Origin: Pseudomonadota bacterium
Lineage (GTDB): Bacteria > Pseudomonadota > Gammaproteobacteria > Steroidobacterales > Steroidobacteraceae
Assembly: GCA_018261655.1 (NCBI GenBank)
Contig: JAGTSG010000013.1
Span: forward strand, 1 to 44,955
Length of the DNA: 44,955 nt
Direction: 5' to 3'
Part shown: in pieces, positions 14,209-44,955 of the stretch
Position numbering within the stretch: the stretch's first letter is position 1
Layout of the letters: each line of letters opens with the position of its first letter
Translations under genes and position numbers: made by a program
Notes under the pieces: generated by a model
Told to the model about the DNA's origin: nothing
Seen by the model: the letters and a program-made list of their open reading frames with translations, nothing else
Databases searched by the model: none

Positions 14209-15147
14209 ATGAGCAGCGCCGCGGGGCCGGGGAAGGCGCGTTTCGACCGCGGTTCGCTCAAGCGCTTCGCCTGGCTGTCGATCGCGGCGGCCGTGGCCAC
14301 GATCCTGCTCAAGGCCGTGGCGTACTGGGTGACCGGCTCGGTCGGCCTGCTGTCAGACGCCCTCGAGTCCTTCGTCAACCTTGCCGGCGCGCTGATGGCG
14401 CTGGCCATGCTGTCGCTGGCCGCCCGGCCGCCCGACGCCAATCACGCCTATGGCCACGGCAAGGCCGAGTACTTTTCCAGCGGCGTCGAGGGCGGATTGA
14501 TCCTGGTCGCGGCGATCAGCATCGGCGTCGCGGCGGTCGACAGGCTGTTCCACCCCCGGCCGCTGGAGCAGGTGGGACTCGGGCTCGGCGTCTCGGTCGT
14601 CGCCTCGCTGGTCAACCTCGGCGTGTCGGTCGTGCTGATGCGCGCGGCAAAGCAGTACGACTCCATCACGCTGAAGGCCAACGCCCACCACCTGATGACG
14701 GACGTGTGGACGTCGGCGGGCGTCCTGGCCGGCGTCGGGGCCGTCGCCTTCACCGGCTGGCTGTGGCTCGACCCGGTGGTGGCGCTCGCGGTCGCCGCCA
14801 ACATCGTCTGGACCGGCGTGCGCATCGTGCACGCCTCGGTGCTCGGCCTCATGGACACGGCCCTGCCGGAAGCGGAGCAGGCCGCCATCGTCGCGGTCCT
14901 CGACCGCTACGTCACGGACGAGGTGAAGTACCACGCGTTGCGCACGCGCCAGGCCGGGCCGCGGCGATTCGCATCGGTCCACGTGCTGGTGCCCGGCGCG
15001 TGGTCCGTGGCGCAGGGACACGACCTGCTCGAGAAGATCGAGGCAGACCTGCGCGCCGTGCTGCCGATGATGACGGTGGACACGCACCTCGAGCCGCTCG
15101 AGGACCCGGCGGCGCACAACGACCTGGACCTCGACCGCGCCTACTGA
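14209..15147 (+). CDS. Cation diffusion facilitator (CDF) family transporter
   Basis: A 312-residue inner-membrane metal-proton antiporter with six predicted helices and a cytoplasmic C-terminal domain. Helix 2 carries [16 protein letters not shown] (Asp50, with Glu53 and Asn57 nearby) and helix 5 carries [13 protein letters not shown], giving the His161-x3-Asp165 pair of the transport site. The HGKAEYFS motif between helices 2 and 3 is the classic CDF signature. Zinc, iron or manganese are the likely cargo; the residues do not decide between them. The C-terminal part ends in [10 protein letters not shown], typical of the ferredoxin-like domain. It converges with the thioredoxin-like gene, leaving only 15 bases between stops. 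Confidence 0.9.
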
Positions 15148-15879: not shown

Positions 15880-16215
15880 ATGTCGCTCAAGGACCTTCTG
15901 GACGCAGCGAAACGCCGCCTCGGCGTGGCGGACGCGGCGGCTGACGCCACCCCGTCGCCGCGCGAGCACGTGCGCCTGACGAATCCCTGGCACGCGGTCA
16001 CGATCCAGTCCGGCCCGAAGCGCTGCCGCGCGGCAGAGGCCCTCGCCGGGCAGCGGTTCCTGTCGAAGGAGGCGCCGACGCTCCCGCTGCGCGACTGCAC
16101 CGAGCCCCAGTGCACCTGCCGTTACCGGCACTACGACGACCGGCGCCACGCGGGCGTGCCCCTCGACAGCAACGGGGTGCCGCTGCCGCACGGGAAACGC
16201 CGCAACACGGACTGA
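15880..16215 (+). CDS. Conserved hypothetical protein with a C-terminal Cys/His motif
   Basis: A 111-residue soluble protein. The N-terminal 30 residues are a charged, Ala-rich helix; the rest includes NPWHAVTIQSGPKRC, RFLSKEAPTLPLRDC and CTCRYRHYDDRR, then an Arg/Lys-rich tail. The spacing of the cysteines (C-x5-C-x-C) followed by YRHYDDRR recurs in small proteins of gammaproteobacteria whose function is unknown to me. It may bind a metal or nucleic acid, but that is a guess. A ribosome site GGGAGG is 4-5 bases before the ATG. Divergent from the thioredoxin-like gene. Confidence 0.7.
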   Translation: MSLKDLLDAAKRRLGVADAAADATPSPREHVRLTNPWHAVTIQSGPKRCRAAEALAGQRFLSKEAPTLPLRDCTEPQCTCRYRHYDDRRHAGVPLDSNGVPLPHGKRRNTD

Positions 16216-16295
16216 GCGGGCGGCATCCGCTTCCTCCCCGCGCCGCGCGCCACGCGGTTGCTACAATCCCGGGCCTGCCTGGAGCCCGGAACCAC

Positions 16296-16883
16296 GTGCT
16301 GCCCCACTCGGAAGCCTGCGAGCGCAACAAGGAGCCGATCCTCGCCATCCTGCGCGCGGCCCTGTCCGAGGCGACCAGCGTGCTCGAGATCGGCAGCGGC
16401 ACCGGCCAGCACGCGGTGCATTTCGCCCGGCGGCTGCCGCACCTCGACTGGCAGCCGACCGACCGCGGCGAGTACCTGCCGTCCCTCGCCACGCGCATCG
16501 CGCTGGAGGGACCGCCGAACCTGCGGTCGCCGGTCGAGCTGGACGTCAACCATGCAGGCTGGCCCTTCGCCGGCATGGACGCGGTTTTCAGCGCCAATAC
16601 CCTGCACATCCTGTCCTGGCCGTCGGTCGAGGCGTTCTTCGCGGGCGTGGGCCGCGTGCTCGTGCCGGGAGGGCGGCTCCTCGTGTACGGGCCGTTCCGC
16701 TACGGCGGCGCCTTCACCACCGGCAGCAACGCGGCCTTCGATGCCGACCTGCGCGCGCGGGATCCCGCCAGCGGCGTCCGCGACTTCGAGGCGGTGGACG
16801 CGCTCGCCCGCGCGCAGGGGCTGAGCCTCGAGGCGGACCACGCGATGCCCGCCAACAACCAGCTACTGCTCTGGCGGCGGTAG
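16296..16883 (+). CDS. DUF938-family SAM-dependent methyltransferase-like protein
   Basis: A 195-residue class I methyltransferase-like protein. It opens with the DUF938 signature SEACERNKEPIL, then the SAM-binding loop VLEIGSGTGQHAVHFA (about residues 29-44), the acidic strand end at DWQPTD, and a later AMDAVFSANTLHILSWPSVE. The C-terminus has the PANNQLLLWRR ending seen in the family. The substrate is not known. The start is GTG 16296, with GGAG at 16281-16284; there is no in-frame ATG close by. The usual family length is about 200 residues, which fits. TACAAT at 16260-16265 is a possible -10 box in front of the gene. Confidence 0.85.
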   Translation: MLPHSEACERNKEPILAILRAALSEATSVLEIGSGTGQHAVHFARRLPHLDWQPTDRGEYLPSLATRIALEGPPNLRSPVELDVNHAGWPFAGMDAVFSANTLHILSWPSVEAFFAGVGRVLVPGGRLLVYGPFRYGGAFTTGSNAAFDADLRARDPASGVRDFEAVDALARAQGLSLEADHAMPANNQLLLWRR

Positions 16884-16925
16884 AATTACCGGGGCCAGGC
16901 CGACCCGGAAACCGCCATCTTGCCG

Positions 16926-17825
16926 ATGCTCGTGAACCTGAGAGGCGCCCTCGTGCTGGCGCTGATCGCGCTGAATACCGTGCTGTGGGGCACGCTGCTG
17001 CTGCTGCTCGCCGCGGTCAAGCTGGTGACGCCCACGGGCGCCGCACGGAGGTTCCTGAGCCGCGGCCTGGTGGCCCTGGCCGAGAACTGGATCAGCACCA
17101 ACAACCTGGTCCTCGTGGCAACCCGCGCGCTGCGCCTCGAGCGCCGCGGCGACGTGGACCTCGTGCGGCAGCAGTGGTACCTGATGATCTCGAACCACCG
17201 CTCGTGGGTGGACATCCTGGTCCTGCAGTCGGCCTTCAACCGCCGCGTCCCGTTCCTCAAGTTCTTCATCAAGGACCAGCTGAAGTGGGTGCCGATCCTC
17301 GGGCTCGCGTGGTGGGCGCTCGACATGCCGTTCATGCGGCGCCACTCGCGTGAATACCTCGAGCGGCACCCCGGGGCGCGCGGCCAGGACCTCGAGGCGA
17401 CGCGGCGCGCCTGCGAGAAGTTTCGCCGCGTGCCGACCACGGTGATCAACTTCGTCGAGGGCACGCGCTTCACGCCGGCCAAGCGCGATGCCACCGGCGC
17501 TCCCTACCGGCACCTCCTGCCGCCGCGCGCGGGAGGCATCGCCTTCGTGCTCGGCGCGATGGGCGACATGCTGCACGCGACGCTCGACGTGACGATCGCC
17601 TACGGCGCGAGGACACCGAGCCTGTGGGACCTGTGCTGCGGCCGGATGAGGCGCGTAATCGTCCACGTCCGCAGGTGCGCGATCGAGCCGTGGATGACCG
17701 GCGGCAGCTACGCCGACGACCCGGCCTTCCGCGCGAACTTCCAGCAGGGGCTTGCGGCAATGTGGATGGCCAAGGACCGGCTGCTGGACGAGCTGCAGGC
17801 GGAACTTGCCGCGGACACCGCCTGA
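16926..17825 (+). CDS. PlsC-like lysophospholipid acyltransferase (YihG type)
   Basis: A 299-residue inner-membrane acyltransferase. A hydrophobic N-terminal helix (about residues 8-34) anchors it. The catalytic HX4D motif is NHRSWVDILVL, about residues 94-104, and the phosphate-binding EGTR motif is NFVEGTRFTP. An FIKDQLKWVPILGLAWWALD segment corresponds to the acyl-chain block. The length and the RR/HSRE region resemble E. coli YihG/YihG-like 1-acylglycerol-3-phosphate acyltransferases, not the short PlsC. It would add an acyl chain to lysophosphatidic acid or a related lipid. A TTG six bases earlier (16920) could also be the start. The next genes are a kinase-like protein and a dehydrogenase. 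Confidence 0.85.
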   Translation: MLVNLRGALVLALIALNTVLWGTLLLLLAAVKLVTPTGAARRFLSRGLVALAENWISTNNLVLVATRALRLERRGDVDLVRQQWYLMISNHRSWVDILVLQSAFNRRVPFLKFFIKDQLKWVPILGLAWWALDMPFMRRHSREYLERHPGARGQDLEATRRACEKFRRVPTTVINFVEGTRFTPAKRDATGAPYRHLLPPRAGGIAFVLGAMGDMLHATLDVTIAYGARTPSLWDLCCGRMRRVIVHVRRCAIEPWMTGGSYADDPAFRANFQQGLAAMWMAKDRLLDELQAELAADTA

Positions 17826-30761: not shown

Positions 30762-32267
30762 TCATCCGTCCGCCATGCTCCAGCTCTTCGACCGTTCGAC
30801 AGCGCGCCGCCAATCGTGCATCAATTCCGCCGCTCGGTCGCGCCCGATCTGCGGCTCGAACCGGCGCTCGATCTGCCAGCCAGCCGCCAGTTCGTCCGCG
30901 GACTCCCAGAATCCCGTCGCGAGCCCGGCGAGGTAGGCGGCGCCGAGGGCCGTGGTCTCGGTAACGCGCGGACGCACGACAGGCACGCCCAGGATGTCCG
31001 CCTGGAATTGCATCAACAGGTTGTTGACGGTCGCGCCCCCGTCGACCCGCAGTTCGATCAGTGGCTGGCACGCATCCTGCTGCATTGCCTCGAGCAATTC
31101 GGCGCTCTGAAAGGCGATGCACTCCAGGGCTGCGCGCGCGATATGGGCGCGCGTCGTGCCGCGGGACAGGCCGACCATGGCGCCGCGCGCGTAGGGATCC
31201 CAGTGCGGACTGCCAAGGCCCGTGAAAGCCGGCACGAGGAAGACGCCGCCGCTGTCCGGGACGCTGTCCGCAAGCGCCTCGACGTCCCCGGACCTTTCTA
31301 TGAGGCCCAGCCCGTCGCGAAGCCACTGCACGACGGCGCCGCCGACGAAGACGCTGCCCTCCAGCGCGTAGCATCGCCCGCTCAGATCCCAGGCCACGGT
31401 CGACAGCAGGCGATTCCTGGATGGCAGGGGGCTGGCGCCGGTGTTCATCAGCATGAAGCAACCGGTGCCATACGTGTTCTTGGCCATGCCGGGCTGGAAG
31501 CAGGTTTGCCCGAACAGGGCGGCCTGCTGGTCGCCGGCGATTCCGGCGAGTGGCAGCACATTCCCTTCCAGTGTGATGGTCAGGGGTCCTCCGACGTCCG
31601 GACCCAGGGACGAAGGCACGACCTCCGGCAGGCAGGCAGGCGGGATGCGGAACAGGTCCAGCATGGCCTCGTCCCACCGACCGGTGCGGAGGTCGAGCAG
31701 CAACGTGCGGCTGGCGTTGGTTACGTCGATGACGTGCAGCCCGTGCCCTGACAGCTTCCATGCCAGCCAGCTGTCCACGGTGCCAAAGCACAGTTCGCCC
31801 CGCTCCGCGCGGCTACGCGCCCCGGGGACATGGTCCAGCAGCCAGGCAAGCTTGGTCCCGGAGAAGTACGGGTCGAGCAGCAACCCAGTTCGTTCGGTGA
31901 CCAGAGGCTCGTTGCCGGCCTCCCGGACAGCGGCACACAGATCGGCGGTGCGGCGATCCTGCCAGACGATCGCCGGCGCGACCGGCCGGCCCGACGACCT
32001 CTCCCAGAGCACGGTCGTCTCGCGCTGGTTGGTGATGCCGACCGCCGCAATGTCGCGCAGCGAGGCACCAGCGCGCGCCAGGACCTCGGCGATGGTCACG
32101 GCTTGCGAAACCCAGATCTCGTCGGCGTCGTGCTCCACCCAGCCTGGTTGCGGGAAATACTGGGTGAACTCCCGCTGCGCGCTGGCGACGATGTTGCTCT
32201 CCCGGTCGAACAGGATCGAGCGCGAGCTGGTCGTGCCCTGGTCCAGGGCAAGGACATATCGGGACAT
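30762..32267 (-). CDS. glpK: Glycerol kinase
   Basis: A 501-residue FGGY-family kinase that makes sn-glycerol 3-phosphate from glycerol and ATP. Recognisable GlpK segments: [18 protein letters not shown] (phosphate 1), [48 protein letters not shown], and the glycerol/ADP site [11 protein letters not shown] and [19 protein letters not shown]. It sits 33 bases downstream of glpD and 42 upstream of the GST. It is the last metabolic gene in the suyAB-slcD-slcC-glpD-glpK series, where it would handle the glycerol released from sulfoquinovosyl glycerol. GGAG before ATG. Confidence 0.95.
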
Positions 32268-32300
32268 CGGTGTCTCCTCGCCCGGAAACCGCGTCCGGGA

Positions 32301-33815
32301 TCACCCGCCGCCGGTGTTTCTTGCGAGCCAATCGTCGATCCGGCCAGCGTCGTCCGGTCGCGACCGCAGCCCGAGCTTGCTGCGCCGCCACAAGATGTCG
32401 TCGGCCATGACAGCCCATTCGTGCTGGCACAGGTACGCCAGCTCCCGCTCGTACAGCCCGGGCGCAATCTGCTCGCCCAGGTCCTCGAGGCCGGCGCAGT
32501 CGCCGAGCATCCGGCTCATGCGCGATCCATAGGCGTGCGCCATGCGCAGGAGCAGCGGGCCGGGCAGCCAGGGCCAGCGTGCTCCGCATTCTGCCGCGAA
32601 AGTGTCGAAATTGCCGTCCGGCAGGTCTCCGCCGGGCAGCAGCGCGCCGGCGGTCCAGGCTTGTGCCTGGCGACCCAGGACGTCCGCGAGCCGGTCGACC
32701 ACTTCCTCTGCCAGGCGGCGGTAGGTCGTGATCTTGCCACCGAAAACGGAGAGCAGCGGCGGACCGGAGCGATCCAGTTCCAGCGCGTAATCGCGCGTGA
32801 CGCTGGGCGCGTCGGCCGAACGGTCGCTCAGCAGCGGCCGCAGGCCGGCGTAGCTCCAGACGACATCGTCCGGCGAGATCCGCTGGCGGAAGTACCGTGC
32901 CGCCATCGCGCAAAGATAGCGCGTCTCCTCGTCCGTAATGCTGACCGCACCCGCCTCTCCCGGGTGGTCCACGTCAGTGGTGCCGATCAGGGTAAAATCC
33001 TGCTCGTAGGGAATCGCGAACACGATCCGGCCATCCGGCCCCTGAAAGATATAGGCGTAGGGATGGGCGAACATCCGCGGCACGACGATGTGGCTGCCCT
33101 TGACCAGTCGCACGCCGTTCGCGCTCCTGACCGGCGTGCCTTCACGCAGGAACTGTGCCGCCCAGGGACCGGTCGCGTTCACCACCGCCCGCGCATGCAG
33201 CGCGACCACGCCACCGTCCCGGCCACGCAGAGTCGCCCGCCAGCCGTCGCCATCCCGCTGTAGGGTCTCGCAGCGGGTCCGCGTCAGGACCGTCGCGCCG
33301 CGCTCGCGCGCGTCCACCGCATTCAGGACGACGAGTCGAGCATCGTCGACCCAGCCATCGGAGTACTCGAAGCCGGTGCGGAACCCGGCGACGAGCGAAG
33401 CGCCGGCCGGGTGGTCTGCGAGTTCGACCTTGAACGAGCCAGGCAGCCGGTGGCGGCGCGCGAGATGGTCATACAGAACGAGACCGGCACGGATCATCCA
33501 GGCCGGCCGCAGGTGACTGTCGTGCGGCAGCACGAAGCGCAGCGGCCACATGATGTGGGGCGCCATCGCCAGCAGCACTTCACGTTCCTGGAGCGCCTTG
33601 CGCACCAGGCCGAACTCGTATTGCTCGAGGTAACGCAGGCCGCCGTGGATCAGCTTGGTGCTCGCCGAGGAGGTGTGGGAGGCGAGGTCGTCCTGCTCGC
33701 AAAGCAGGACCTTCAGGCCGCGCCCGGCCGCATCCCTGGCAATACCGCAGCCGTTGATGCCTCCGCCGACGATGAGCAGGTCGTGACGTTCCACGGTCAA
33801 CGGCGGCGAAATCAC
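32301..33815 (-). CDS. glpD: Aerobic glycerol-3-phosphate dehydrogenase
   Basis: A 504-residue FAD enzyme that oxidises sn-glycerol 3-phosphate to DHAP at the membrane, passing electrons to quinone. FAD is bound by HDLLIVGGGINGCGIARDAAGRGL; the family signature STKLIHGGLRYLEQYEFGLV follows, with FVLPHD and VRSANGVRLVKGSHIVVPR. The C-terminal cap domain has LAYLCQHEWAVMADDILWRRSKLGL, typical of GlpD. The start is a GTG 33815, 15 bases after the slcC stop. It is in a run with sulfolactate genes, which is unusual, since glpD normally lies with glpF/glpK only. Confidence 0.95.
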   Translation of the reverse strand: MISPPLTVERHDLLIVGGGINGCGIARDAAGRGLKVLLCEQDDLASHTSSASTKLIHGGLRYLEQYEFGLVRKALQEREVLLAMAPHIMWPLRFVLPHDSHLRPAWMIRAGLVLYDHLARRHRLPGSFKVELADHPAGASLVAGFRTGFEYSDGWVDDARLVVLNAVDARERGATVLTRTRCETLQRDGDGWRATLRGRDGGVVALHARAVVNATGPWAAQFLREGTPVRSANGVRLVKGSHIVVPRMFAHPYAYIFQGPDGRIVFAIPYEQDFTLIGTTDVDHPGEAGAVSITDEETRYLCAMAARYFRQRISPDDVVWSYAGLRPLLSDRSADAPSVTRDYALELDRSGPPLLSVFGGKITTYRRLAEEVVDRLADVLGRQAQAWTAGALLPGGDLPDGNFDTFAAECGARWPWLPGPLLLRMAHAYGSRMSRMLGDCAGLEDLGEQIAPGLYERELAYLCQHEWAVMADDILWRRSKLGLRSRPDDAGRIDDWLARNTGGG

Positions 33816-33830: not shown

Positions 33831-34757
33831 TCAGCCATCGAGGTGCCGCAGCACCGCGGCCGCGGTGACGATGCTCACACGAACGTTCGACTGCTCGGTG
33901 ACTCCGGCGATGTGCGGCGTGAGGAGCAGGTTGCCGATGCCGCCGAACATCGCACCATGCGCGGCATCGAGGGGCTCGGTCTCGAAGACGTCAAGCGCCG
34001 CGCCGGCAAGTGTGCCGGCGCGGAGCGCCGCAGCGAGCGCCGCTTCGTCGACGATTCCGCCGCGCGCGGCGTTGATCAGGACGGCGCGCGGCTTCATCAG
34101 CGACAGCGCGCGACCGTCGATCAGCGAGCGCGTTTCGCTGGTGAGCGGCACGTGCAGGCTGACGACGTCGCTCGCCGCAAGCAGTTCGTCCAGCCCAAGG
34201 TGGTCGACCCCTTTCCAGGCCGGGTGCCCATCGGGCAGGTATGGATCGCAGGCGGCCACCGACATGCCCAGTGCACGTGCCCGCGCGGCCGTCTCGCGCG
34301 CGATGGCGCCGAAGCCGACCAGTCCGAGCCGCTGGCCGGACGCTTCGCGCCCGATCAGCGCCATCCGCGGCCACTCGCCGGCCGCGACGCGCGCGGTGGC
34401 GAACCAGGCGCCGCGCAGCAGGACCAGCGCGGCGGTCAGTACATACTCGGCGACCGCGATGTCGTTGGCCCCGGTGGCGGGGCAGACGGCGATGCCGCGC
34501 GCATCACAGGCCGCCGTGTCGATGTTGTCGAGCCCGACGCCGAGCCGGCCGACCACCCGCAGGCGGGGCGCGACGGCCAGCAGCGGCGGCCGCACCTGCG
34601 TGCGGTTGCGTACTACCAGAGCGCGCGCATCGCCCAGCAGCACCGCGAGTGCGTCGGGCCTGTCGACCAGCGTCGGGTCGTACACGACGTCGCGCCCGGC
34701 GAGGTCCCGTGCAATGACTTCCTCGTCCATGAACTCGGTGATCACTATGTCGGCCAT
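33831..34757 (-). CDS. slcC: (S)-sulfolactate dehydrogenase (D-2-hydroxyacid dehydrogenase family)
   Basis: A 308-residue NAD-dependent dehydrogenase. The N-terminus MADIVITEFMDEEVIARDLAG, followed by YDPTLVDRPDALAVLL and RALVVRNRTQVR, is the hallmark of SlcC-type proteins that oxidise (S)-sulfolactate to 3-sulfopyruvate. The nucleotide fold is LGLVGFGAIARETAARA; catalytic residues are Arg in INAARGGIVDE, Glu in ALDVFETEP, and His in LTPHIAG. I chose ATG 34757 because the family starts there and GGGGGAG precedes it. Beside suyAB and the Ldh-type comC/slcD, this is the first half of the sulfolactate inversion. Other 2-hydroxyacids are possible, but the neighbours argue for sulfolactate. Confidence 0.85.
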   Translation of the reverse strand: MADIVITEFMDEEVIARDLAGRDVVYDPTLVDRPDALAVLLGDARALVVRNRTQVRPPLLAVAPRLRVVGRLGVGLDNIDTAACDARGIAVCPATGANDIAVAEYVLTAALVLLRGAWFATARVAAGEWPRMALIGREASGQRLGLVGFGAIARETAARARALGMSVAACDPYLPDGHPAWKGVDHLGLDELLAASDVVSLHVPLTSETRSLIDGRALSLMKPRAVLINAARGGIVDEAALAAALRAGTLAGAALDVFETEPLDAAHGAMFGGIGNLLLTPHIAGVTEQSNVRVSIVTAAAVLRHLDG

Positions 34758-34788: not shown

Positions 34789-35811
34789 CTACGGCCGCCC
34801 GCCGGCGAGCAGCCGGATTTCCTCGGCCAGCACCGACGGGACCTGGATTCCATCCCGTGCAGCGCGCATGCGGGCCTCGAGCCGCCTCGACCCAGGCAGT
34901 CGCGCGTCCGGTTCCTCGGCCAGCGCGGCGAGCAGATCCGCCATGCGGCCGGGGAACGCGCCGCCCGACAACGGACCAGGGTCGATCGCCAGGAACACGT
35001 GGCCCATGTCGGGTGGCCCGCCCTGGGCGTCGAACATGGAACTGGCCTCCCAGCCGAAGGAGCTGCCCGTCAGCGCCGCAGCGAGGATCTCGACCATGAG
35101 TGCCAGGGCCGCACCCTTCGGGCCGCCGATCGGCGACAGGGCGCCGGCGAGCGCCGCGTCCGGATCCGTGGTCGACTGGCCGTCACGGTCCACCGCCCAG
35201 CCGGCCGGGATGGGTCGACCCGCCTTCTGCGCCGCGACGATCTTGCCGCGGGCGGCGACCGATAGTGCCAGGTCGATGACCAGCGGCGCGTCCGCGCCTG
35301 GAAGGGGCGCGGCGAAGGCAATCGGATTCGTGCCGAGCGCCGGCCGCCGGCCGCCCCAGAAGGCCATCGCCTTCGGCGTGTTGCCGAATACCAGCGCGAC
35401 GAGTCCCTGCCCGGCGAGCCGCTCCGCGTGCGCACCCGCCTGCCCGAAGTGGTGCGATGCGCCTACCGTCGCCAGGGCCACGCCCGCCTGCCGTGCAAGC
35501 GGAACCAGCGCGCCGAGGGCCAGGTCGATCGCCGGGTAGGCGAAACCGTGGGCCGCGTCCACGCGCAGGGCGGCCGCGGCTACCTGTTCGAGCCTGGGCC
35601 GCGCGAAGCCATTCACCTTGCCTACGCGGGCGTGCAGTGCGTAGGGTGGTACGCGGGACAGGCCGTGCCCGGACTGGCCGTCGGCCTCCGCCGCCACCAG
35701 CGCGCGGGCCGTCGGCGCAGCGTTTTCCGGGCTGCAACCGCTGGCCTGCAGCGCGGCGAGGACGAGTGCCTCGGCCTCGGACAGGGACAGGCGCGTGACT
35801 TCGGCGCTCAA
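34789..35811 (-). CDS. comC: (R)-sulfolactate dehydrogenase, ComC/SlcD type (Ldh family)
   Basis: A 340-residue protein of the malate/L-lactate dehydrogenase (Ldh_2) superfamily, which has its own NAD(P) fold, not the Rossmann type. Typical segments: SGHGLSRVPPYA near residue 47, VDAAHGFAYPAIDLAL, VGASHHFGQAGAHAERLA (catalytic His region), FGNTPKAMAFWGGRRPALGTNPIAFA, and GPKGAALALMVEILAAALTG. In the sulfolactate pathway ComC (also called SlcD) reduces sulfopyruvate to (R)-sulfolactate with NADPH. Together with SlcC it inverts the S to the R enantiomer that SuyAB uses. The start is TTG 35811 (GGGAGA 8 bases upstream). It lies between suyB (38-base gap) and slcC (31-base gap). Confidence 0.82.
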   Translation of the reverse strand: MSAEVTRLSLSEAEALVLAALQASGCSPENAAPTARALVAAEADGQSGHGLSRVPPYALHARVGKVNGFARPRLEQVAAAALRVDAAHGFAYPAIDLALGALVPLARQAGVALATVGASHHFGQAGAHAERLAGQGLVALVFGNTPKAMAFWGGRRPALGTNPIAFAAPLPGADAPLVIDLALSVAARGKIVAAQKAGRPIPAGWAVDRDGQSTTDPDAALAGALSPIGGPKGAALALMVEILAAALTGSSFGWEASSMFDAQGGPPDMGHVFLAIDPGPLSGGAFPGRMADLLAALAEEPDARLPGSRRLEARMRAARDGIQVPSVLAEEIRLLAGGRP

Positions 35812-35849: not shown

Positions 35850-37022
35850 TCAGGCGCTGCGGTAGAGCTTCGTCATGACGAATTCGCGATGGCCGAGGGC
35901 CTCCGCGGCCGTCAGCCGGCCGTTCGCCGTGCTCACGATGCAGTCGATCAGTGCATCGCCCGCCTGGTCGATGGTTATTTCACGCCGGACGACGCCCGAG
36001 ATGTCCACGTCGATGTGTTCGGACATCAGCCTGACGGTGCGCGGATTCCCGGTGACCTTGATGACCGGCATGATCGGGTTGCCGATCACGTTTCCCTGGC
36101 CGGTAGGGAAGATGTGCACCACGTAGCCCGCCGCTGCCTGCAGGGTGCAGCACTCGGCTGCCGCCGAGGAAGTGTCCATGAAGTACAGCCCCGGCCCGCG
36201 CGCCGGCGCCTCGGCCGGCTGCAGCACGTCGATGAAGCTGATCTTCTTGCCGATCTTCTCCAGGTTGCCTAGCGCCTTTTCCTCGATCGTGGTCAGGCCG
36301 CCGGCGATGTTGCCCTTGGTGGGCTGGCTGTCGGACAGGTCCGAGGTCTTGTGGGCCTCGATGACCTCATCCTGGTAGGCCTGCCAGGTCTTCATGAACT
36401 TCTCGCGCACCTCGGGCGTGGCGGCACGCGCCGCGGCGAGGTGCTCGGCACCGGTCAGTTCTGAGGTCTCTCCGAAGCAGCCGTACACGCCCTGGGGCAC
36501 GAGCTTGTCGTACATGTTGCCGACGGTAGGGCAGGATGCCAGGCCGGTGGTCGTGTCCGACTCGCCGCACTTGGCCGCGATCCAGAGCTCCTCGAGGTCG
36601 CATTCCACGCGCACCTGCGCGGAGGCCTGGTGGACGAACTCCTTGGCCTTGCGGGAGGCGGCCGCGACGGTGGCGATGTCGCCGTTGTTCTCGATCGCGA
36701 ATCCCGCCACCGGCTTGCCGGTCGCGGCGATGCCGTCGACGATGCGTTGCGTCCAGCCCGGCTCGATGCCGATCACGATGCAGGCGGCGACGTTGGGATT
36801 GGCCCCTGTGCCAATCATCGTCCTGAAGTGCAGGTCCAGGTCCTCGCCGAACTGCAGGCGGCCGTATGCGTGCGGCAACGCGAGGGTGCCTTGAATGTGG
36901 GCGGCGACGGCCTCGCAGGCTGCGTTGGAGATATCGTCGACCGGTAGTATGGCGACGTAGTTGCGGACGCCCACCCGACCGTTCTCACGGCGGTAGGCCC
37001 AGATCTTCCTGCCGGTGCTCAT
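35850..37022 (-). CDS. suyB: (2R)-sulfolactate sulfo-lyase, large subunit
   Basis: A 390-residue UxaA-family protein that, with SuyA, splits (R)-sulfolactate into pyruvate and sulfite. The features match SuyB as I know it: [75 protein letters not shown], and [12 protein letters not shown]. This sets it apart from altronate dehydratase (UxaA), which usually is one chain of about 495 residues with the small domain fused. The start is ATG 37022, 14 bases after the suyA stop. As in other Suy loci, the small and large subunits are split and adjacent. Iron is expected as cofactor by analogy. Confidence 0.92.
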
Positions 37023-37036
37023 GGGATGGTCCGCTC

Positions 37037-37324
37037 CTACCAGCGCTTGGTCTTGAGGTTGTGGACGTGGACGTGTTCGCCGCGGGCAGCCGGGGCCACC
37101 ATCCTGCCGATGTCCTGCCCGTACTTGATGACGGTATCGCCCGGCTTGAGGTCCGCCAGCGCGATCTTGTGCCCGATCGGCACGGCCTGTCGCGCCACCA
37201 TGCGGAAGTCGGAATTGTCTGCGGTCACCACACACAACATCTCGGTGCCGGCCTCGAGACCCTCCACCACCACCACGCCGACGTTGTCGGCATGGTCGTG
37301 GACCAGTAGTTGCGGTGCGCTCAC
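37037..37324 (-). CDS. suyA: (2R)-sulfolactate sulfo-lyase, small subunit
   Basis: A 95-residue SAF-domain protein, the small subunit of the sulfo-lyase. The pattern is [18 protein letters not shown], then [30 protein letters not shown], where the IPxGHKxA(L)xxixxGdxViKYG motif is the UxaA small-domain signature. In the family this domain helps bind substrate next to SuyB. The start is GTG 37324, supported by an excellent AGGAGG 8 bases upstream. It is the first gene of the leftward operon. Its own promoter lies in the AT-rich patch at 37351-37380. Confidence 0.9.
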
Positions 37325-37455: not shown

Positions 37456-38175
37456 ATGGACGATTCGCCCCACTACCGCCCCCTGTACCGCCAGGTGTAC
37501 GACTTCCTGGTGCGGCAGATCGCCGAGGGTGCGTGGCGGCCGGCCGAAGCGCTGCCCAGCGAGCAGGCACTGGCCGACAAGCTGGGCGTCAGCCAGGGAA
37601 CCGTGCGCAAGGCACTCGACGTGCTGGCGGTCGAGAAACTGGTCGAGCGCCGCCAGGGCAAAGGCACCTATGTCGCCGAGCACACGCAGGAGCGGGCCCT
37701 GTTCCGCTTCTTCCGTATCAGCGAGCCGGGTGGCGAGCGCAGCTTCCCGACCAGCGCCGACGAGACGGCCCGCCGCAGGCCGGCCCGCCCCGTCGAGGCC
37801 CGCAAGCTGCATCTCGACAAGGGCGCGCAGGTGGTCGAAATCAGCCGCACCCGCCTCATCGATGGCAAGCCCGCGGTGCTGGAACGCAGCGTGCTGCCAG
37901 TCGCGCTGTTCCCGGACATCGACAAGCGCCGGCCACTGCCCAATGCCCTGTACGCCCTTTACCAGCAGGAGTTCGGCGTGAATATCGTCAGCGCCGACGA
38001 GGAACTGCGCGCCGACGCGGCGACCCGCGAGGACGCGCGACTGCTGGGACTGCAGCCGGGCGCGCCGTTGCTGCACATCGAGCGGGTCGCGATCGCGCTC
38101 GACGGCAAGCGGGTCGAGTGGCGAGTCAGCCGCTGCAACACCACGCACCTCGTCTACGCCGTCACGCTCTCCTGA
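37456..38175 (+). CDS. GntR/HutC-family transcriptional regulator
   Basis: A 239-residue regulator of the HutC type. The winged-helix domain (about 8-75) reads PLYRQVYDFLVRQIAEGAWR, LPSEQALADKLGVSQGTVRKALDVL and VERRQGKGTYVAEH. The UTRA ligand-binding domain (about 90-235) has VVEISRTRLIDGKPAVLERSVLP and PLLHIERVAIALDGKRVEWR. UTRA domains bind sugars, sugar phosphates or related acids; here a sulfosugar or sulfosugar phosphate is the natural guess. The start ATG 37456 fits the family; a GTG at 37435 would add 7 residues. It divides the suyAB operon from the kinase-aldolase operon and likely controls both. Confidence 0.9.
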   Translation: MDDSPHYRPLYRQVYDFLVRQIAEGAWRPAEALPSEQALADKLGVSQGTVRKALDVLAVEKLVERRQGKGTYVAEHTQERALFRFFRISEPGGERSFPTSADETARRRPARPVEARKLHLDKGAQVVEISRTRLIDGKPAVLERSVLPVALFPDIDKRRPLPNALYALYQQEFGVNIVSADEELRADAATREDARLLGLQPGAPLLHIERVAIALDGKRVEWRVSRCNTTHLVYAVTLS

Positions 38176-38198: not shown

Positions 38199-39125
38199 AT
38201 GACCATGGCGACGGTCCTGTGTGTCGGGCACGCGGTGCAGGACTACGTGTTCAGCGTCGTCGATCTGCCGCGGCTTGCGGTCAAGCACCAGGCGTCGGCG
38301 CTGCGGCGCGTCGGCGGCGGTCCCGCCGCGACCGCCGCGGTCGCGGTTGCCCGGCTCGGCGGCCGGGCACTGCTCGCCGCGCGCGTTGGCGACGACGCGG
38401 TGGCGGGGGAAATGGTCGCTGAGCTGGAGTCCTACGGCGTCGACTGCGCCTATGTCCGCCGCCTGAAGGGCCACCGTTCGTCGCTCTCCGCCGTCATGGT
38501 GGATCGCAGCGGGGAGCGGATGATCGTCAATTACCTCGACGAGAACATGCCCACCGCCGCCGGCTGGCTGCCGGCCCCGCAGGCCGTCGGCGCCGAGGCG
38601 GTGCTGGCGGACAGCCGCTGGCCCGAGGGCGCTGCCTGGGCACTCGCGGCGGCGCGGGTCGCCGGCATTCCCGGCGTTCTCGATGCCGACAAGCCGGTCC
38701 CGCCCGAGGACGGCGCATTGCGGGCGGCGACCCACGTCGCCTTCTCGGCGGAGGCGCTGTCCGACTACACGGGCATCGGCGACTGCGTCCTTGGGCTGCG
38801 GACGGCCGCCGCCCGGCTGGGGGGCTGGTGCTGCGTAACGGCGGGGGCCGAAGGCGTCTACGTACTCGACGGCGGCGCGATGTCCCACTTTCCCGGGCAT
38901 CCTGTTGAGGTCGTCGACACGCTGGGTGCCGGCGACGTATGGCACGGGGCGTTTGCGCTCGCGCTGGCCGAAGGCGCTGACTGGCGCGACGCGGTCCGCT
39001 TCGCTTCCGCGGCCGCCGCGCTCAAGGTGCAACGCCCGGGTGGCCGTGCCGGGGTTCCGTCCCGCGCCGAAGTGGAAGATTTTCAACGCCAGGCGGGGAT
39101 GCCTGCCCCGAGGACGCCCGAATGA
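38199..39125 (+). CDS. PfkB-family sugar kinase (candidate 6-deoxy-6-sulfofructose kinase)
   Basis: A 308-residue ribokinase-like enzyme. The glycine-rich entry motif is RRVGGGPAATAAVAVARLG (about residues 37-54) and the catalytic DTxGAGD motif is DTLGAGDVWHGAF (Asp240-Asp246, with Asp246 as base). E. coli YihV, the 6-deoxy-6-sulfofructose kinase, is of this same family, and this gene sits directly before a LacD/YihT-like aldolase and with other sulfosugar genes, so it probably phosphorylates 6-deoxy-6-sulfofructose at C1. That is an inference from context; an unmodified ketose is the alternative. It ends inside the aldolase start (ATGA). Confidence 0.8.
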   Translation: MTMATVLCVGHAVQDYVFSVVDLPRLAVKHQASALRRVGGGPAATAAVAVARLGGRALLAARVGDDAVAGEMVAELESYGVDCAYVRRLKGHRSSLSAVMVDRSGERMIVNYLDENMPTAAGWLPAPQAVGAEAVLADSRWPEGAAWALAAARVAGIPGVLDADKPVPPEDGALRAATHVAFSAEALSDYTGIGDCVLGLRTAAARLGGWCCVTAGAEGVYVLDGGAMSHFPGHPVEVVDTLGAGDVWHGAFALALAEGADWRDAVRFASAAAALKVQRPGGRAGVPSRAEVEDFQRQAGMPAPRTPE

Positions 39126-40168
39126 TCCTGTCTGCCGGCAAGTACCGTGGCATGAAGCGCATGGCCGACGCCGCGGGCCGATTCAAGATGACGGCAGTGG
39201 ACCAGCGTCCGCCCATCAAGAACCTGATCCGCACGCGCCTGGGTACTGTCGAGGCGCCCTGGGAGGACGTGGCCGGGTTCAAGGAACTGCTGATCCGCGA
39301 ACTCCAGGGCGAATCGTCGGCCATGCTGCTCGACCCGCACTACGCCTACCCACGCGGCGTCACCATGCTGAATGCTTCACTCGGCATGATCCTCACGCTC
39401 GAGGACTCGATATTCGAAGAGACTCGCGGCGGCCGCCTGTCAGCAGAGATTGACGACTGGTCGGTCGAGAAGATCAAGCGGGCCGGTGGCGACGGCGTCA
39501 AGCTGCTGACCTGGTACCGACCCGACGCCGAGCCGGCGGTATGCCGGGCACAGCAGGACTTTACCGCGCGCGTGGGCGATGCCTGCGCGCGCTTTGACAT
39601 TCCCTTCGTGTTCGAGCTGCTGGTGTATCCGCTGGCGCGGGACGCGGAGCAGACGCGCGACTACGTGGAAATGAAGACCAAGAGGCCCGAGCTGGTCCTC
39701 GAGAGCGTCGAGACCTTCGCAGCACCGCGCTTCGGCGTCGACCTGTTCAAGCTCGAGAGTCCGGTGGCTGCCGACGACGTTCCCGAAGCCGGCGCGGAAG
39801 GATCGGCCGAGGTGCAGCGGTGGTTCGACCAGCTTGGACGCGCGGCAGGCAGGCCCTGGGTCATGCTCTCGGCCGGCGCCGGGATGGACGAGTTCGCGCG
39901 CGTCCTGGCGCACGCGTACCGCGCCGGGGCCTCCGGGTACCTGGCCGGACGGGCGATCTGGATGAAGGCCTTCGACCAGTTCCCGGACTGGGACGCGATG
40001 TCCGCCGGCCTGAAGGGCGAGGCCGTGGCCTACATGCGCCAGTTGAACCTTCTGACCGACGCCGGGGCGCTACCCTGGCACCGGCACGCCTGCTACGGCG
40101 AGGGCGGGGCGCGCGTGCTGCCGGCCGACGCCGGATTCCGCCACGCCTATCCGGGCTTTGGAGGCTGA
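39122..40168 (+). CDS. LacD/DeoC-type aldolase (candidate 6-deoxy-6-sulfofructose-1-phosphate aldolase)
   Basis: A 348-residue class I aldolase of the tagatose-bisphosphate aldolase (LacD) group, with the Schiff-base lysine Lys127 in GGDGVKLLTWYRP. Other family segments: TAVDQRPPIKNLI near the start, SAMLLDPHYAYPRGV, FVFELLVYPL, and SAGAGMDEFARVLAHAYRAGASGYLAGRAIW near the C-terminus. The sulfo-EMP aldolase YihT is of this same group but shorter (about 290 residues). It would split the ketose 1-phosphate to DHAP and sulfolactaldehyde. Identity as YihT-like is inferred from fold and neighbours. It overlaps the kinase (ATGA) and has a GGAGGCTGAC site before the next ATG. Confidence 0.8.
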   Translation: MILSAGKYRGMKRMADAAGRFKMTAVDQRPPIKNLIRTRLGTVEAPWEDVAGFKELLIRELQGESSAMLLDPHYAYPRGVTMLNASLGMILTLEDSIFEETRGGRLSAEIDDWSVEKIKRAGGDGVKLLTWYRPDAEPAVCRAQQDFTARVGDACARFDIPFVFELLVYPLARDAEQTRDYVEMKTKRPELVLESVETFAAPRFGVDLFKLESPVAADDVPEAGAEGSAEVQRWFDQLGRAAGRPWVMLSAGAGMDEFARVLAHAYRAGASGYLAGRAIWMKAFDQFPDWDAMSAGLKGEAVAYMRQLNLLTDAGALPWHRHACYGEGGARVLPADAGFRHAYPGFGG

Positions 40169-40169: not shown

Positions 40170-41248
40170 ATGGGACTCAGATACGGCGTCGCCGCCCTGG
40201 CCCGCCCCACTTTCGACGTGCCCTTCGCCGAGGAGATGAAGGAACGCGCGTTCGCCGCGCTTGCGGCGGCCGGCATCGAGGCCGTCGGGCCCCGCGAACT
40301 GCTGTTCGACAGGGCCGCCGCCGAACGCGCCATCGCGGAGATCCGGTCCGCCGCGCCGATCGACCTGCTGCTGGTCCTGCAGGTCACCTTCACCGACGCG
40401 ACCATGACGGTCGAGCTGGCACGAAGCGGAGAATTTCCGCTGGCGATCTGGGCCGTGCCCGAGCCGCGGGCCGGTGGCCGGCTGCGGCTCAATGCCTATT
40501 GCGGACTGAACCTCGCAGCCCACGCACTCGGCCGGGTCAATGCCGACCACGGCTGGCTGTACGCATCGCCGGATGAGCCGGGACTTTCCGCGCGGCTGCG
40601 GGCGCTGGCGACCCCCGCCCGACACGCTGCACCAGCGGCCCGGGCGCCAGCGCAGCCGGATAGCGGCGCCGTGGCGGTCGCCGACCGGGCCCTGGCGAAG
40701 CTCGCGGGCGGCACGATCACGGTCGTCGGCAAGCACCCCGACGGCTTCGACACCTGCGAGTACGACGAAAGCCTGCTCGACCGTCTCGCCGGCATGAAAG
40801 TCAGGAGCTGTCCGACCAGCCGGCCTGGATGGCCGACCTGGTGGACATCACGCCTGCGGACGACACGGCGGTCATCTGGCACTGTGGCCTCGCGCCGCTG
40901 TCGATGCGCGATCCCGAGGTTCCCGCCGAGGCCACGATCCACACCAATCGCCGCATGCCGCTGCTGCACCAGTTCCCGATCAAGCCCGGCCGCATCACGC
41001 TGGCGCGGCTCTCGCGCGCCCGCAACGAGGTCAAGCTGATGATCGCGGGCGCAGAAGTGATCCGCGCGCCCATGGCCTTCACGGGCTGCTCCGGCACCAT
41101 CCGTTTCGACCGGCCGGCGGCGGACGTCCACCAGACGATCATGGATGAGGGACTCGAGCATCACTTCGCACTCGCCTACGGCGACCACAAACCTGCGCTC
41201 CGCGCCATCGCCGCGCGCTGGAGGCTGCCGGTCCTGGAGCTGGCCTGA
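40170..41248 (+). pseudogene. L-fucose/arabinose isomerase-family protein (candidate sulfoquinovose isomerase), broken by an out-of-frame deletion
   Basis: The first about 210 codons (MGLRYGVAALARPTFDVPFA to LLDRLAGMKV) are in one frame, including GKHPDGFDTCEYDESLLDRL. From 40802 a second frame continues (QELSDQPAWMADLVDITPADDTAVIWHCGLAPLSM and onward to RWRLPVLELA). Both parts look like one protein of the FucI/AraA-type family, in which the middle about 100 residues, with metal-binding Glu/Asp, lie between these two segments. So a piece of about 300 bases is absent near 40797-40804 and the frame is lost. FucI-like isomerases replace YihS in some sulfo-EMP variants. An assembly error or a recent true deletion are both possible; as written, it could not work. 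Confidence 0.72.
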
Positions 41249-41250: not shown

Positions 41251-43293
41251 ATGTCAGGGTTCGCGCTGGACTCGCCAAACTGGGGGCGGATCCCGCCGGT
41301 CCGCGTCACCGGCCGGGCGGAGATACTCGCCTCCGGGGAGGTCCTGCTACCCACCTCGGCAGGCACGCTCACGGTCACGCTGCACGAGAGTGGCGCGCGA
41401 CTGCGGATGGGTCCGCCGGCACGGGACTACGGCATCCTTGTTGACCTGCCCGCCGTCCGGGTGCCGACAGTGGCCCACGGTGACGGCGAAACGGTGGTCT
41501 CGAGCGGCGCGCAGGCCCTGGCGATCGGCCACGAGCCGCTGTCCTTCGTGCTGTCGCGCGGCGGGCGCCAGGTGCAGGCCTCGCCAGGAGACGGCCACTT
41601 CGTGCGCCGCTTCCGCCTGCCGCCTTTCGCACTGGTTGACGGCGGCTGGTTCGTGAGCCTGGAGCTCGGCGAGGACACAGCCGTCTACGGCCTGGGCGAG
41701 AAGTGGGGGCGCCTCGATCGGCGGGGCCAGCTCATCCGCTCCTTCAACCACGACGCACTCGGTGTCAACGCCGAGGTGAGCTACAAGAACGCACCCTTTG
41801 CCTGGAGTCCGGACGGATGGGGTGTCTTCGTCCATACGACGGCGGCGGTAACGCATGGCGTCGGCTACGCGCCCTGGTCACAACGCGCCTACGGGCTGTG
41901 GGTGGACTCCCCGTCGCTCGATCTCTTCCTGCTCGACGGGGCTGACGGCGCGGCGCAGCTTCGGCAGTACACCGCGCTGACAGGCCGGGCACCGGTGCCG
42001 CCGCGCTGGAGCCTGGGCGTGATCCTCTCGAAGGCCTATTACCGGGACGCGGAGGAGATCCTGTCCGTAGCTCGCGAGGTCCGCGCGCGCGGCATGCCCT
42101 GCGAGACGATCACCTTTGACGGCCGCGCCTGGCAGGACACGGACACCCGCTTCGCCTTCGAGTGGTGCCCGAAGCGCTATCCAGACCCGGCGCCGGTCAT
42201 CGCCGAGCTGAAGTCCCTCGGCTTCCACATCTGCGTGTGGGAATACCCGCTCATTTCCGTCAGGAACCCGCTCTTCGCCGAGCTCGCCGGGAAAGGCTGG
42301 CTGCTCACGGACCGCCGCAGTGGTGAAGCCTACCGCTACCGGTGGGATCCCGAGCCCTTCGGGGCGGTGCTGACGGCGCTTCCGGAATCGGGGCTGCTCG
42401 ACTTTACCCATCCCGACGCCTATGCGTACTGGCGCGACCGGCACCGCGCCCTCTTCGAAGCGGGCGTCGACATGATCAAGGCCGACTTCGGCGAGCAGGT
42501 CGACGACTTCATGGTCGCCAGCGACGGCTCGAGCGGCAGCGAGCTGCACAACGCCTATGCGCTGCTCTACAACCGCTGCGTCTACGAGGCGGCCGAGCGC
42601 TACGCCGCCGACGGCGCCTTCCTGTTCAGCCGTTCGGCCTGGTCGGGCTCGCAACGCTATCCCTCGCAGTGGGGCGGCGACCCGCAGGCCGACTGGGGTG
42701 GCCTTGCCGCGAGCCTGCGCGGCGGACTGTCGTGGGGACTCTCGGGCGGCCCTTACTACGCCACGGACGTGGGTGGCTTCTACGGCGACCGGCGCGACCC
42801 GGAGCTGTATGTGCGATGGGCACAGGCCGCGGTCTACTCTGCGCACATGCGCCTGCACGGGATCGGGCCGCGCGAACCCTGGTCATACGGCCCCGAGGCC
42901 GAGGCGGCGGTGAACTCGGCGCTGCGGCTGCGGTACCGCCTGATCCCTTACCTCGAGCACGCGATGACGCAGGCGAGAGAGACGGGATTGCCGGTGCAGC
43001 GTGCGATGGCGCTCGCCTGCCCGGGCGAGCGCGTGGCGCGCAGCTTCGAGAACCAGTTCTTCTGCGGCGACGACCTGCTGGTCGCGCCCTGCCTTCAGCC
43101 GGGCGGCGAGGTCGAGGTCTATCTGCCCGCCGGACGCTGGCGTCGCTTCCCCGAGGGCGCCACGTTCGACGGTGGCCGGATCCTGCGGCTCGAGCTCGCG
43201 CTGGACGAAACGGCCGTGTTCGCGCGCGACGAGGCGCGGATACCTCTCGGTCCCGACGTGATCCACACCAGCGACCTGGGAGGCGGACCATGA
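41251..43293 (+). CDS. GH31 alpha-glycosidase (candidate sulfoquinovosidase)
   Basis: A 680-residue, intracellular GH31 enzyme, full length and without a signal peptide. The N-terminal beta-sandwich covers about 1-240 (with YGLGEKWGRLDRRGQ near 146), followed by the (beta/alpha)8 barrel. The catalytic nucleophile is Asp412 in KADFGEQ, and the acid/base is Asp477 in QWGGDPQADW. The segment around 285-310 has TFDGRAWQDTDTRFAFEW. In GH31 sulfoquinovosidases a sulfonate-binding Arg lies in this region and an Arg (Arg300) is present here, but overall the enzyme looks closer to YicI-type alpha-xylosidases than to E. coli YihQ. It follows the isomerase gene by 2 bases and overlaps the TRAP gene. Confidence 0.85.
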   Translation: MSGFALDSPNWGRIPPVRVTGRAEILASGEVLLPTSAGTLTVTLHESGARLRMGPPARDYGILVDLPAVRVPTVAHGDGETVVSSGAQALAIGHEPLSFVLSRGGRQVQASPGDGHFVRRFRLPPFALVDGGWFVSLELGEDTAVYGLGEKWGRLDRRGQLIRSFNHDALGVNAEVSYKNAPFAWSPDGWGVFVHTTAAVTHGVGYAPWSQRAYGLWVDSPSLDLFLLDGADGAAQLRQYTALTGRAPVPPRWSLGVILSKAYYRDAEEILSVAREVRARGMPCETITFDGRAWQDTDTRFAFEWCPKRYPDPAPVIAELKSLGFHICVWEYPLISVRNPLFAELAGKGWLLTDRRSGEAYRYRWDPEPFGAVLTALPESGLLDFTHPDAYAYWRDRHRALFEAGVDMIKADFGEQVDDFMVASDGSSGSELHNAYALLYNRCVYEAAERYAADGAFLFSRSAWSGSQRYPSQWGGDPQADWGGLAASLRGGLSWGLSGGPYYATDVGGFYGDRRDPELYVRWAQAAVYSAHMRLHGIGPREPWSYGPEAEAAVNSALRLRYRLIPYLEHAMTQARETGLPVQRAMALACPGERVARSFENQFFCGDDLLVAPCLQPGGEVEVYLPAGRWRRFPEGATFDGGRILRLELALDETAVFARDEARIPLGPDVIHTSDLGGGP

Positions 43294-43874
43294 CCAGCGC
43301 CGCTCCGGGCCGGCTGCTCCGCCTCGTCGACCGCCTGCTCGCGGTGCTGGCGGCCTTCAACCGGCCGATCGCCCTGGCGGGCCGCAACCTCGCGGCCGGG
43401 CTGATCGGGGCCATGGTCGCCCTGGCGCTCGCGCAGATCCTGTCCCGCGCGTTGTTCAGCTACACGCTCGACTGGGCCGAGGAACTCGCGCGCGTCGCGC
43501 TGGTGTGGTCGGTGCTGCTGGTCGCGCCCTTCGCCTACCGCAGCGGCGCGCATGTCGCCATCGACTCGCTGGCGGCCTCGCTGCCGCCGCGCCTGATCAT
43601 CGCCGTGAGCCTCGGGCTCAACCTGCTGGTGCTGTGGATCTGCGCCGAGATGTTCCGCCAGAGCCTCGCCTTCTGGTCGCGGGGGCTGACGCTCACCGCT
43701 TCGGCGCTCGGGGTACAGATGGCCTGGATCTACGCGATCGTCCCCACGGCCTTCGCGTTCCTGATCCTCGTGGGCATGGAGCTGGTGCTGCGGCTGCTGG
43801 CCTCGCTGGTGCGTCCAGATACCGGACTGACGCTGGTCGGCACCGTGCCCGCCGTCAAGCCGGAAGGACGCTGA
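43290..43874 (+). CDS. TRAP transporter small permease (DctQ-type)
   Basis: A 194-residue inner-membrane protein with four predicted helices (about 28-50, 66-88, 103-125 and 143-166). Family pattern: a helix-1 region, then SYTLDWAEELARVALVWSVLLVAPFAYRSGAHVAIDSLAASLPPR, where the WAEELAR and GAHVAID segments are the DctQ hallmark. It pairs with the large permease encoded 3 bases downstream. The ATG overlaps the GH31 stop (ATGA) and GGGAGG is close upstream. TRAP systems take up carboxylates and sulfonates; a sulfosugar or its glycoside would fit the cluster. Confidence 0.9.
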   Translation: MTSAAPGRLLRLVDRLLAVLAAFNRPIALAGRNLAAGLIGAMVALALAQILSRALFSYTLDWAEELARVALVWSVLLVAPFAYRSGAHVAIDSLAASLPPRLIIAVSLGLNLLVLWICAEMFRQSLAFWSRGLTLTASALGVQMAWIYAIVPTAFAFLILVGMELVLRLLASLVRPDTGLTLVGTVPAVKPEGR

Positions 43875-43877
43875 GCG

Positions 43878-44955
43878 ATGTCCACCGCGTTCTTCTGGAT
43901 CTTCGTGATGCTGCTGGCGCTCGGGATGCCGGTGGTGTTCGCACTGCTGGTGGGCCCCGGCCTGAGCCTCGTCATGGACGAGCAGCAGCAGTACTTCCCG
44001 GCGCTGCTCTCTCGGCTCTACAACGGCATCGACAGCTTCCCGCTGCTCGCGGTGCCGTTCTTCATCCTGGCCGGTGAACTGATGAACTCCGGCGGCATCA
44101 CCGAGCGGATCGTTCGCTTCAGCCAGTCGCTCGTCGGTCACGTCCGCGGCGGCCTGGCCCAGGTCAACATCCTCTCCTCGATGCTGTTCGCCGGTATCTC
44201 CGGTTCGGCGGTGGCCGACGCCTCGGCCATCGGCAAGATGATGGTCCCGGCCATGGAGCGCAACGGATACAGCCGCGCCTTCGCCGCCGCGGTGACCGCC
44301 GCCGCGGCCGTGATCGGCCCGATCATCCCGCCGTCCGGGATCATGATCCTCTACGGCTTCGTCATGAACGTCTCGATCGGCGCCTTGTTTGCCGGCGGAA
44401 TCGTGCCTGGCATCATGATCGGGCTCGCCCTGATGACCGTCACGCGGCTGCTCGCCCGGCGCTATAACCTGCCGATAGCCTCGCGCAAGGCCACCTGGCG
44501 CGAGCGCGGGCGCTCGCTGCGCGGCGCCTCGCTCGCGCTGCTCATGCCATTCATCCTCCTCGGCGGCATGCTCGGCGGCATCTTCACGGCCACCGAGGCA
44601 GCCGCCGTCGCCGCAGCCTACGCGCTCGTCGTCACACGGTTCGTGCTGCGCACGCTGTCGTTCGCCGACATGCGGCACGTGTTCATCGCCACGGCCGTGC
44701 AATCGGGGGTGATCCTCATGCTGGTCGGTGCGGCGGTCACCTTCGGCTGGCTGGTCACCGTCTCCGGCATGGCCGAGCGCATGGCGGCGTTGCTGGTGGG
44801 CATCACCGACGACCCGCTGCTGCTGCTGCTGCTGCTCAACCTGCTGCTGTTCCTGATCGGCATGTTCCTCGACGCCGGGCCGGCCATCCTGATCCTCGGA
44901 CCCGTGCTCGCGCCGATCTTCACGACGCTGGGCGTGGACCCGGTGCACTTTGCGC
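43878..44955 (+). CDS. TRAP transporter large permease (DctM-type), partial
   Basis: About 359 codons are visible and the gene runs off the end of the window. The N-terminus is AFFWIFVMLLALGMPVVFALLVGPG, and typical DctM segments follow: YNGIDSFPLLAVPFFILAGELMNSGGIT, SSMLFAGISGSAVADASAIG, AAAVIGPIIPPSG, and FTATEAAAVAAAYAL. Normal family length is about 425 residues, so some 65 residues are missing. It is the membrane subunit that carries the substrate with sodium. The periplasmic binding protein gene, needed for uptake, is not in the window and is probably downstream, as may be a sulfolactaldehyde dehydrogenase. Confidence 0.9.
   Translation, partial: MSTAFFWIFVMLLALGMPVVFALLVGPGLSLVMDEQQQYFPALLSRLYNGIDSFPLLAVPFFILAGELMNSGGITERIVRFSQSLVGHVRGGLAQVNILSSMLFAGISGSAVADASAIGKMMVPAMERNGYSRAFAAAVTAAAAVIGPIIPPSGIMILYGFVMNVSIGALFAGGIVPGIMIGLALMTVTRLLARRYNLPIASRKATWRERGRSLRGASLALLMPFILLGGMLGGIFTATEAAAVAAAYALVVTRFVLRTLSFADMRHVFIATAVQSGVILMLVGAAVTFGWLVTVSGMAERMAALLVGITDDPLLLLLLLNLLLFLIGMFLDAGPAILILGPVLAPIFTTLGVDPVHFA

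Follow-up and report, generated by a model that had tools for sequence, protein, structure and literature searches.

Has a gammaproteobacterium of the Steroidobacteraceae lost the isomerase that would open its sulfosugar pathway, or has the gene been damaged only in the deposited assembly? The question is raised by positions 40170-41248 of the window, the 44,955-nucleotide stretch of DNA analysed here, which is contig C25 (JAGTSG010000013.1) of a MAG of 2.22 Mb in 122 contigs that is 74.6% complete. The region holds two in-order parts of one isomerase of the FucI/AraA fold, and these lie in different frames:

40170-40801, plus strand: N-terminal part of the isomerase, Met1-Lys207 in the numbering of relatives, followed by GT, two bases of the next codon (A1 match, codon alignment)
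40801-40802, plus strand: junction, at which 328 nt are absent relative to intact relatives (codon alignment, codon-usage scan)
40802-41248, plus strand: C-terminal part of the isomerase, Gln318-Ala465 and stop (A1 match; PF02952, Fucose_iso_C, 36.5 bits against a cut-off of 29.3)

The two parts were delimited with a profile (A1) built from the alignment of three intact isomerase relatives and searched against the whole MAG, which returned exactly two matches, both at this locus, and no third match elsewhere in the MAG for the block that is missing between them. The first frame is open from the ATG at 40170 and corresponds to residues 1-209 of the intact relatives (40170-40805, E = 9e-98), and the second, from 40802 to 41245 with the stop reaching 41248, corresponds to residues 318-465 (E = 4e-91). 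Identity to relatives of 71-75% in the N part and 81-91% in the C part, with the order kept, rules out chance similarity. In the codon alignment, Lys207 ends at 40799 and is followed by GT and then by the CAG codon of Gln318, placing the junction at 40801|40802, and the interval between these two residues is exactly 110 codons (330 nt) in nine of nine intact relatives compared with 2 nt in the window. The deficit is 328 nt (residues 208-317 minus the 2 nt kept), and since this is not a multiple of three the frame shifts between the two parts; past the junction the first frame stays open, with no homology, to a stop at 41037-41039. Judged against relatives, the sequence shared at the join is at most about 1 nt, and a codon-usage scan found this to be the only frame break across the 45-kb window. 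The original prediction of two in-order parts in different frames, joined near 40797-40804 after an out-of-frame internal deletion, is thereby confirmed by alignment to intact family members; its estimate of about 100 missing residues becomes a measured 110.

The missing block is present in all 80 isomerase relatives retrieved in a scan that took one genome per species, and within the same taxonomic family as the window the gene was found in 12 other genomes, at full length in every one. Family members that naturally lack this part, named at the outset as the finding that would speak against a deletion, were looked for among the 80 and none was seen, so that a naturally short form of the enzyme is rejected. 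In an alignment of 42 homologues the densest invariant run falls within the block, around CWPE, GCAxCGPMAMM and CExD, and more than 20 of its columns are invariant, including Glu305 and the CGPMAMM motif. In a profile comparison to E. coli FucI, residues E337, D361 and H528, the metal ligands of FucI, align with Glu305, Asp329 and His437 of the isomerase, in an alignment that is near full-length and of weak probability (14.7%, E = 0.0018), yet consistent with the fold. All three residues are invariant across the 42 sequences. Glu305 alone among them falls inside the missing block, and the retained C part of the window isomerase keeps Asp329 (D361) and His437 (H528) while Glu305 (E337) is gone. 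The block had been described as carrying the metal-binding acidic residues, which holds for Glu305 and fails for Asp329. The further claim that the product would be inactive stands as an expectation, as either frame taken alone would lack the invariant glutamate that is the predicted metal ligand.

Because searching the PDB with profiles of the isomerase alignments yielded no match at the sequence level, the enzyme was compared by fold. L006, the closest intact relative, was modelled with AlphaFold2 (mean pLDDT 90.5), and the model matches L-arabinose and L-fucose isomerases over residues 161-465, with Z scores of 28-33 and an rmsd of 2.4-2.8 over about 300 residues, and with Foldseek E values down to 1e-20. 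Together with the Fucose_iso_C domain in the C part, this bears out the assignment to the FucI/AraA family. The likeness thus consists of the fold of the modelled relative and of the invariant equivalents of E337, D361 and H528. The differences are an identity of only 10-18% to FucI/AraA enzymes, a different N-terminal region, the sulfonate context and, in the window isomerase as assembled, the lack of the Glu305 equivalent.

Both an assembly error and a real deletion had been proposed for the break, and the evidence favours the former: it is quite likely that the 328-nt break is an artefact and that the organism's isomerase gene is intact. A codon-usage scan that took up to 20 kb from each of 100 further contigs of the MAG, 1.27 Mb altogether, found five further clean out-of-frame internal breaks:

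Contig C3 (L142) 15930-17013, minus strand: split TrpB, exactly 59 nt missing relative to same-genus genomes
Contig C70 (L208) 13951-14684, minus strand: split class I fructose-bisphosphate aldolase (FBA), 145 nt missing relative to same-genus genomes
L145 near 695: BcaP-like permease, model match to 312 and again from 323, about 10 residues missing
L147 near 6371: NadN-like nucleotidase
L156 near 5545: trypsin/PDZ-type protein

The TrpB break places TIGR00263 positions 1-205 and 226-383 in two frames of what is the sole TrpB copy of the MAG, a gene that is intact in five of five same-genus genomes. The FBA matches NF003784 to position 164 and resumes from 214, and is intact in four of the five. 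There is no easy biological explanation for losing TrpB and a glycolytic aldolase, which makes joins of this kind in the assembly suspect. At the three measured joins (isomerase, TrpB and FBA) at most 1-2 nt appear to be shared, as inferred from relatives that stand in for the lost sequence, and to that extent they seem unlike ordinary slippage or deletion between short repeats. False pseudogenes are a common product of assembly, more so at low coverage (PMC11017572). The artefact argument rests on the identity of the genes hit, and the break rate itself is no evidence. That the MAG simply has too many broken genes was considered and rejected, since its rate (six breaks in 1.31 Mb) does not clearly exceed that of two MAGs from the same genus (two in 0.53 Mb, made up of two in 0.30 Mb and none in 0.23 Mb in the same type of scan) or an ordinary pseudogene load.

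The state of the remaining sequence points in the same direction. Values of dN/dS against close relatives are about 0.21-0.30 for the N part and 0.10-0.20 for the C part, broadly of the same order as between intact relatives, and alignment to relatives revealed no further lesion in either part. Constraint on both parts without a further lesion means that the break, if it is real at all, arose very recently. A genuine deletion of such recent date, with which the dN/dS values are compatible, would mean that the strain, or a variant dominating the sample, has lost 328 nt and that the isomerase is a young pseudogene, leaving the pathway blocked at its first committed step or dependent on an isomerase encoded in the missing quarter of the genome. 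This is, after all, what the deposited sequence displays, and the MAG, at 74.6% completeness, yielded neither a match to the YihS-type isomerase of classical sulfo-EMP (PF07221) nor a second FucI-type copy. The isomerase is also absent from the five same-genus genomes (G001-G005), so that the trait is dispensable in the genus. Real loss is nonetheless unlikely, because both isomerase parts remain constrained and free of secondary lesions, all other genes of the surrounding cluster are open and conserved, and joins of this kind also interrupt the sole TrpB and the class I FBA of this assembly. A contig that joins isomerase fragments from two organisms is very improbable: a wrong join within a conserved MAG gene could produce such a picture, but direct evidence for one was not found, and a two-organism chimera is rejected on the relatives shared by both parts and the usual synteny on both flanks. 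Hardly credible at all is a natural two-piece locus that makes a shortened isomerase from overlapping frames, both of which are open with an ATG (40829) 27 nt past the junction, or by programmed frameshifting, as a block kept in 80 of 80 relatives with more than 20 invariant columns, Glu305 and CGPMAMM included, is missing and frameshifting cannot restore absent residues.

Read literally, the break would point to decay of a sulfosugar pathway at its first committed step, a conclusion that the evidence advises against drawing from this MAG. Likewise, apparent auxotrophies or missing pathway steps in this genome need checking against the reads, and a tryptophan auxotrophy read from it, given the split TrpB, is suspect.

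The isomerase lies within a cluster of sulfonate-related and accessory genes, for which the names slcC, comC, suyA and suyB are inferred:

30762-33815, minus strand: glpK (30762-32267) and glpD (32301-33815), above NCBIfam cut-offs, adjoining the cluster in relatives too
33831-34757, minus strand: D-2-hydroxyacid dehydrogenase, SlcC-like (PF00389, PF02826; named from context)
34789-35811, minus strand: Ldh_2 dehydrogenase, ComC-like (best NCBIfam match L-sulfolactate dehydrogenase NF040650, 181.7 bits against a cut-off of 500)
35850-37022, minus strand: SuyB-like large subunit of a candidate (R)-sulfolactate sulfo-lyase (PF04295, PF20629; below the TIGR03248 cut-off; named from context)
37037-37324, minus strand: small subunit, SuyA-like, corresponding to the N-terminal region of galactarate/altronate dehydratase family proteins (TIGR03248 matched weakly, at 38 bits; named from this and synteny)
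37456-38175, plus strand: GntR/UTRA regulator (domain match)
38199-39125, plus strand: PfkB-family (PF00294) sugar kinase, YihV-type candidate (domain match)
39122-40168, plus strand: class I aldolase (PF01791, DeoC/LacD), a YihT-type candidate for cleaving the sulfoketose-1-phosphate (identity to E. coli YihT 30.5% across 285 aligned positions)
41251-43293, plus strand: glycosidase of family GH31, a candidate sulfoglycosidase (retains the catalytic Asp residues; the sulfonate residues of YihQ are replaced)
43290-44955, plus strand: TRAP transporter genes, DctQ (43290-43874) and DctM (43878 to the contig end)

The order glpK-glpD-slcC-comC-suyB-suyA on the minus strand and gntR-pfkB-aldolase-isomerase-GH31 with the TRAP genes on the plus strand recurs, whole or largely, in more than 20 loci of Gammaproteobacteria and some Alphaproteobacteria. 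For the putative SlcC/ComC/SuyAB module the gene order is conserved, with the ComC-like protein under its cut-off and the SuyA/B-like proteins weakly matched by TIGR03248. Among named and sequenced strains, Exilibacterium tricleocarpae R142 (L023) also has the isomerase and the cluster. Within the genus of the window the cluster is patchily distributed, the isomerase being found in none of G001-G005. The GH31 and DctQ genes of the window overlap by 4 nt (43290-43293), whereas in the close relatives L006, L017 and L035 they are separated by a gene resembling those of TonB-dependent receptors, about 2.4 kb long.

The gene, if intact, had been assigned to sulfo-EMP2, said to be described for Arthrobacter and notable in a gammaproteobacterium. 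However, reviews place sulfo-EMP2 in Firmicutes (Bacillus urumqiensis and Megamonas), and Arthrobacter carries the classical YihS/YihV/YihT set (PMC9594981, PMC12890257). Sulfo-EMP2 is defined by a PfkA-type kinase, SqiK (PF00365), and a class II aldolase, SqiA (PF01116) (PMC9594981), whereas the kinase of the window is of the PfkB type (PF00294) and its aldolase of class I (PF01791), so that membership of sulfo-EMP2 falls away. At the family level, the FucI-type isomerase, PfkB kinase and class I aldolase in one cluster are the components of the hybrid sulfo-EMP1/2 sets of Proteobacteria and Actinobacteria (PMC9594981, PMC12890257). The gene set of the window therefore fits the hybrid type of sulfo-EMP that has already been described from Proteobacteria (PMC12890257) and found as the same cluster in many gammaproteobacterial MAGs, and its occurrence here is less of a surprise than had been supposed. 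Compared with these hybrid sets, the window adds the putative sulfolactate-cleaving SlcC/ComC/SuyAB-like module, glpKD and the TRAP transporter. The module, together with PF00294 and PF01791 genes, resembles the tandem sulfofucolytic-sulfolactate sulfolyase cluster of Paracoccus wurundjeri, in which desulfonation is completed in one organism; that route differs, however, in using Entner-Doudoroff-type enzymes on sulfofucose, and no isomerase activity was found there (PMC12421959).

Of the NCBIfam models, that of the sulfoquinovose isomerase SqvD/SftI (NF048012), itself of the FucI/AraA type, is the best and only match of both window parts and of the intact relatives. Against three intact relatives its best E value is 9e-92, and the two window parts score 72.6 and 92.7 bits. 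The intact relative scanned in full, the first member of A1, reaches 262 bits, far below the curated cut-off of 700, and the partner enzymes in the window differ from those of SqvD/SftI, with no SqvB mutarotase gene seen in the window's cluster.

Residues R301, W304 and Y508 (E. coli numbering) are those by which YihQ binds the sulfonate. The GH31 protein of the window, 25.5% identical to YihQ, has D, F and F at these positions and keeps the catalytic D405 and D472, in an alignment that is locally uncertain and has a conserved Arg nearby, in TRFAFEW. It scores higher on the model of the alpha-xylosidase YicI than on the YihQ-type model. This GH31 enzyme may act on a different sulfosugar linkage.

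The sulfosugar context is drawn from the conserved synteny and from a homologue of the isomerase near sulfopyruvate decarboxylase genes in L044 (8995-15459), from a SAR11-like marine alphaproteobacterium, in which the alpha and beta genes both score above curated cut-offs. The isomerase homologues of L044 and of a Thioglobus locus (L040, 7868-14824) are distant, at about 35% identity, and adjoin a Gfo/Idh-type oxidoreductase, a PfkB kinase and a 2-hydroxyacid dehydrogenase. These loci possibly encode a sulfosugar route in abundant marine bacteria.

The following scheme is proposed for the isomerase pathway, its metal site, its substrate and each of its reactions. In the organism the FucI/AraA-type aldose-ketose isomerase gene is most likely intact, at about 465 codons, and the MAG assembly would have dropped 328 nt from its middle, closing the gap without trace and so shifting the frame. 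The intact enzyme probably works as FucI does: a divalent metal held by Glu305, Asp329 and His437 would guide ene-diol isomerisation, turning a sulfonated aldose in its open-chain form (sulfoquinovose or a related sugar) into the 2-ketose. Phosphorylation of this ketose would fall to the PfkB kinase, and the class I aldolase would split the product into DHAP and sulfolactaldehyde. The window's cluster showed no recognisable sulfolactaldehyde dehydrogenase; a candidate for this activity is the succinate-semialdehyde-type aldehyde dehydrogenase encoded between gntR and pfkB in Exilibacterium tricleocarpae R142 (5514-6962). The SlcC/ComC/SuyAB-like proteins would then convert sulfolactate to pyruvate and sulfite.

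The deletion itself is probably no feature of the organism, and the interest that remains lies in a conserved isomerase family that scores below the curated cut-off for sulfoquinovose isomerases. A tentative reading, somewhat short of an even chance, is that the intact enzyme stands at the head of a separate family of FucI-type sulfosugar isomerases, apart from SqvD/SftI, whose members range from Steroidobacteraceae, Woeseiaceae and Parvularcula-type bacteria to the marine lineages of Thioglobus and SAR11-like bacteria, and that the gammaproteobacterial cluster encodes a hybrid sulfoglycolysis that releases sulfite in the same cell. Because the GH31 protein lacks the YihQ sulfonate triad, the substrate is perhaps a sulfosugar glycoside other than the usual sulfoquinovosides. 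The intact isomerase gene would be a divergent relative of already known isomerases, and its cluster could allow a single organism to take a sulfosugar through to sulfite.
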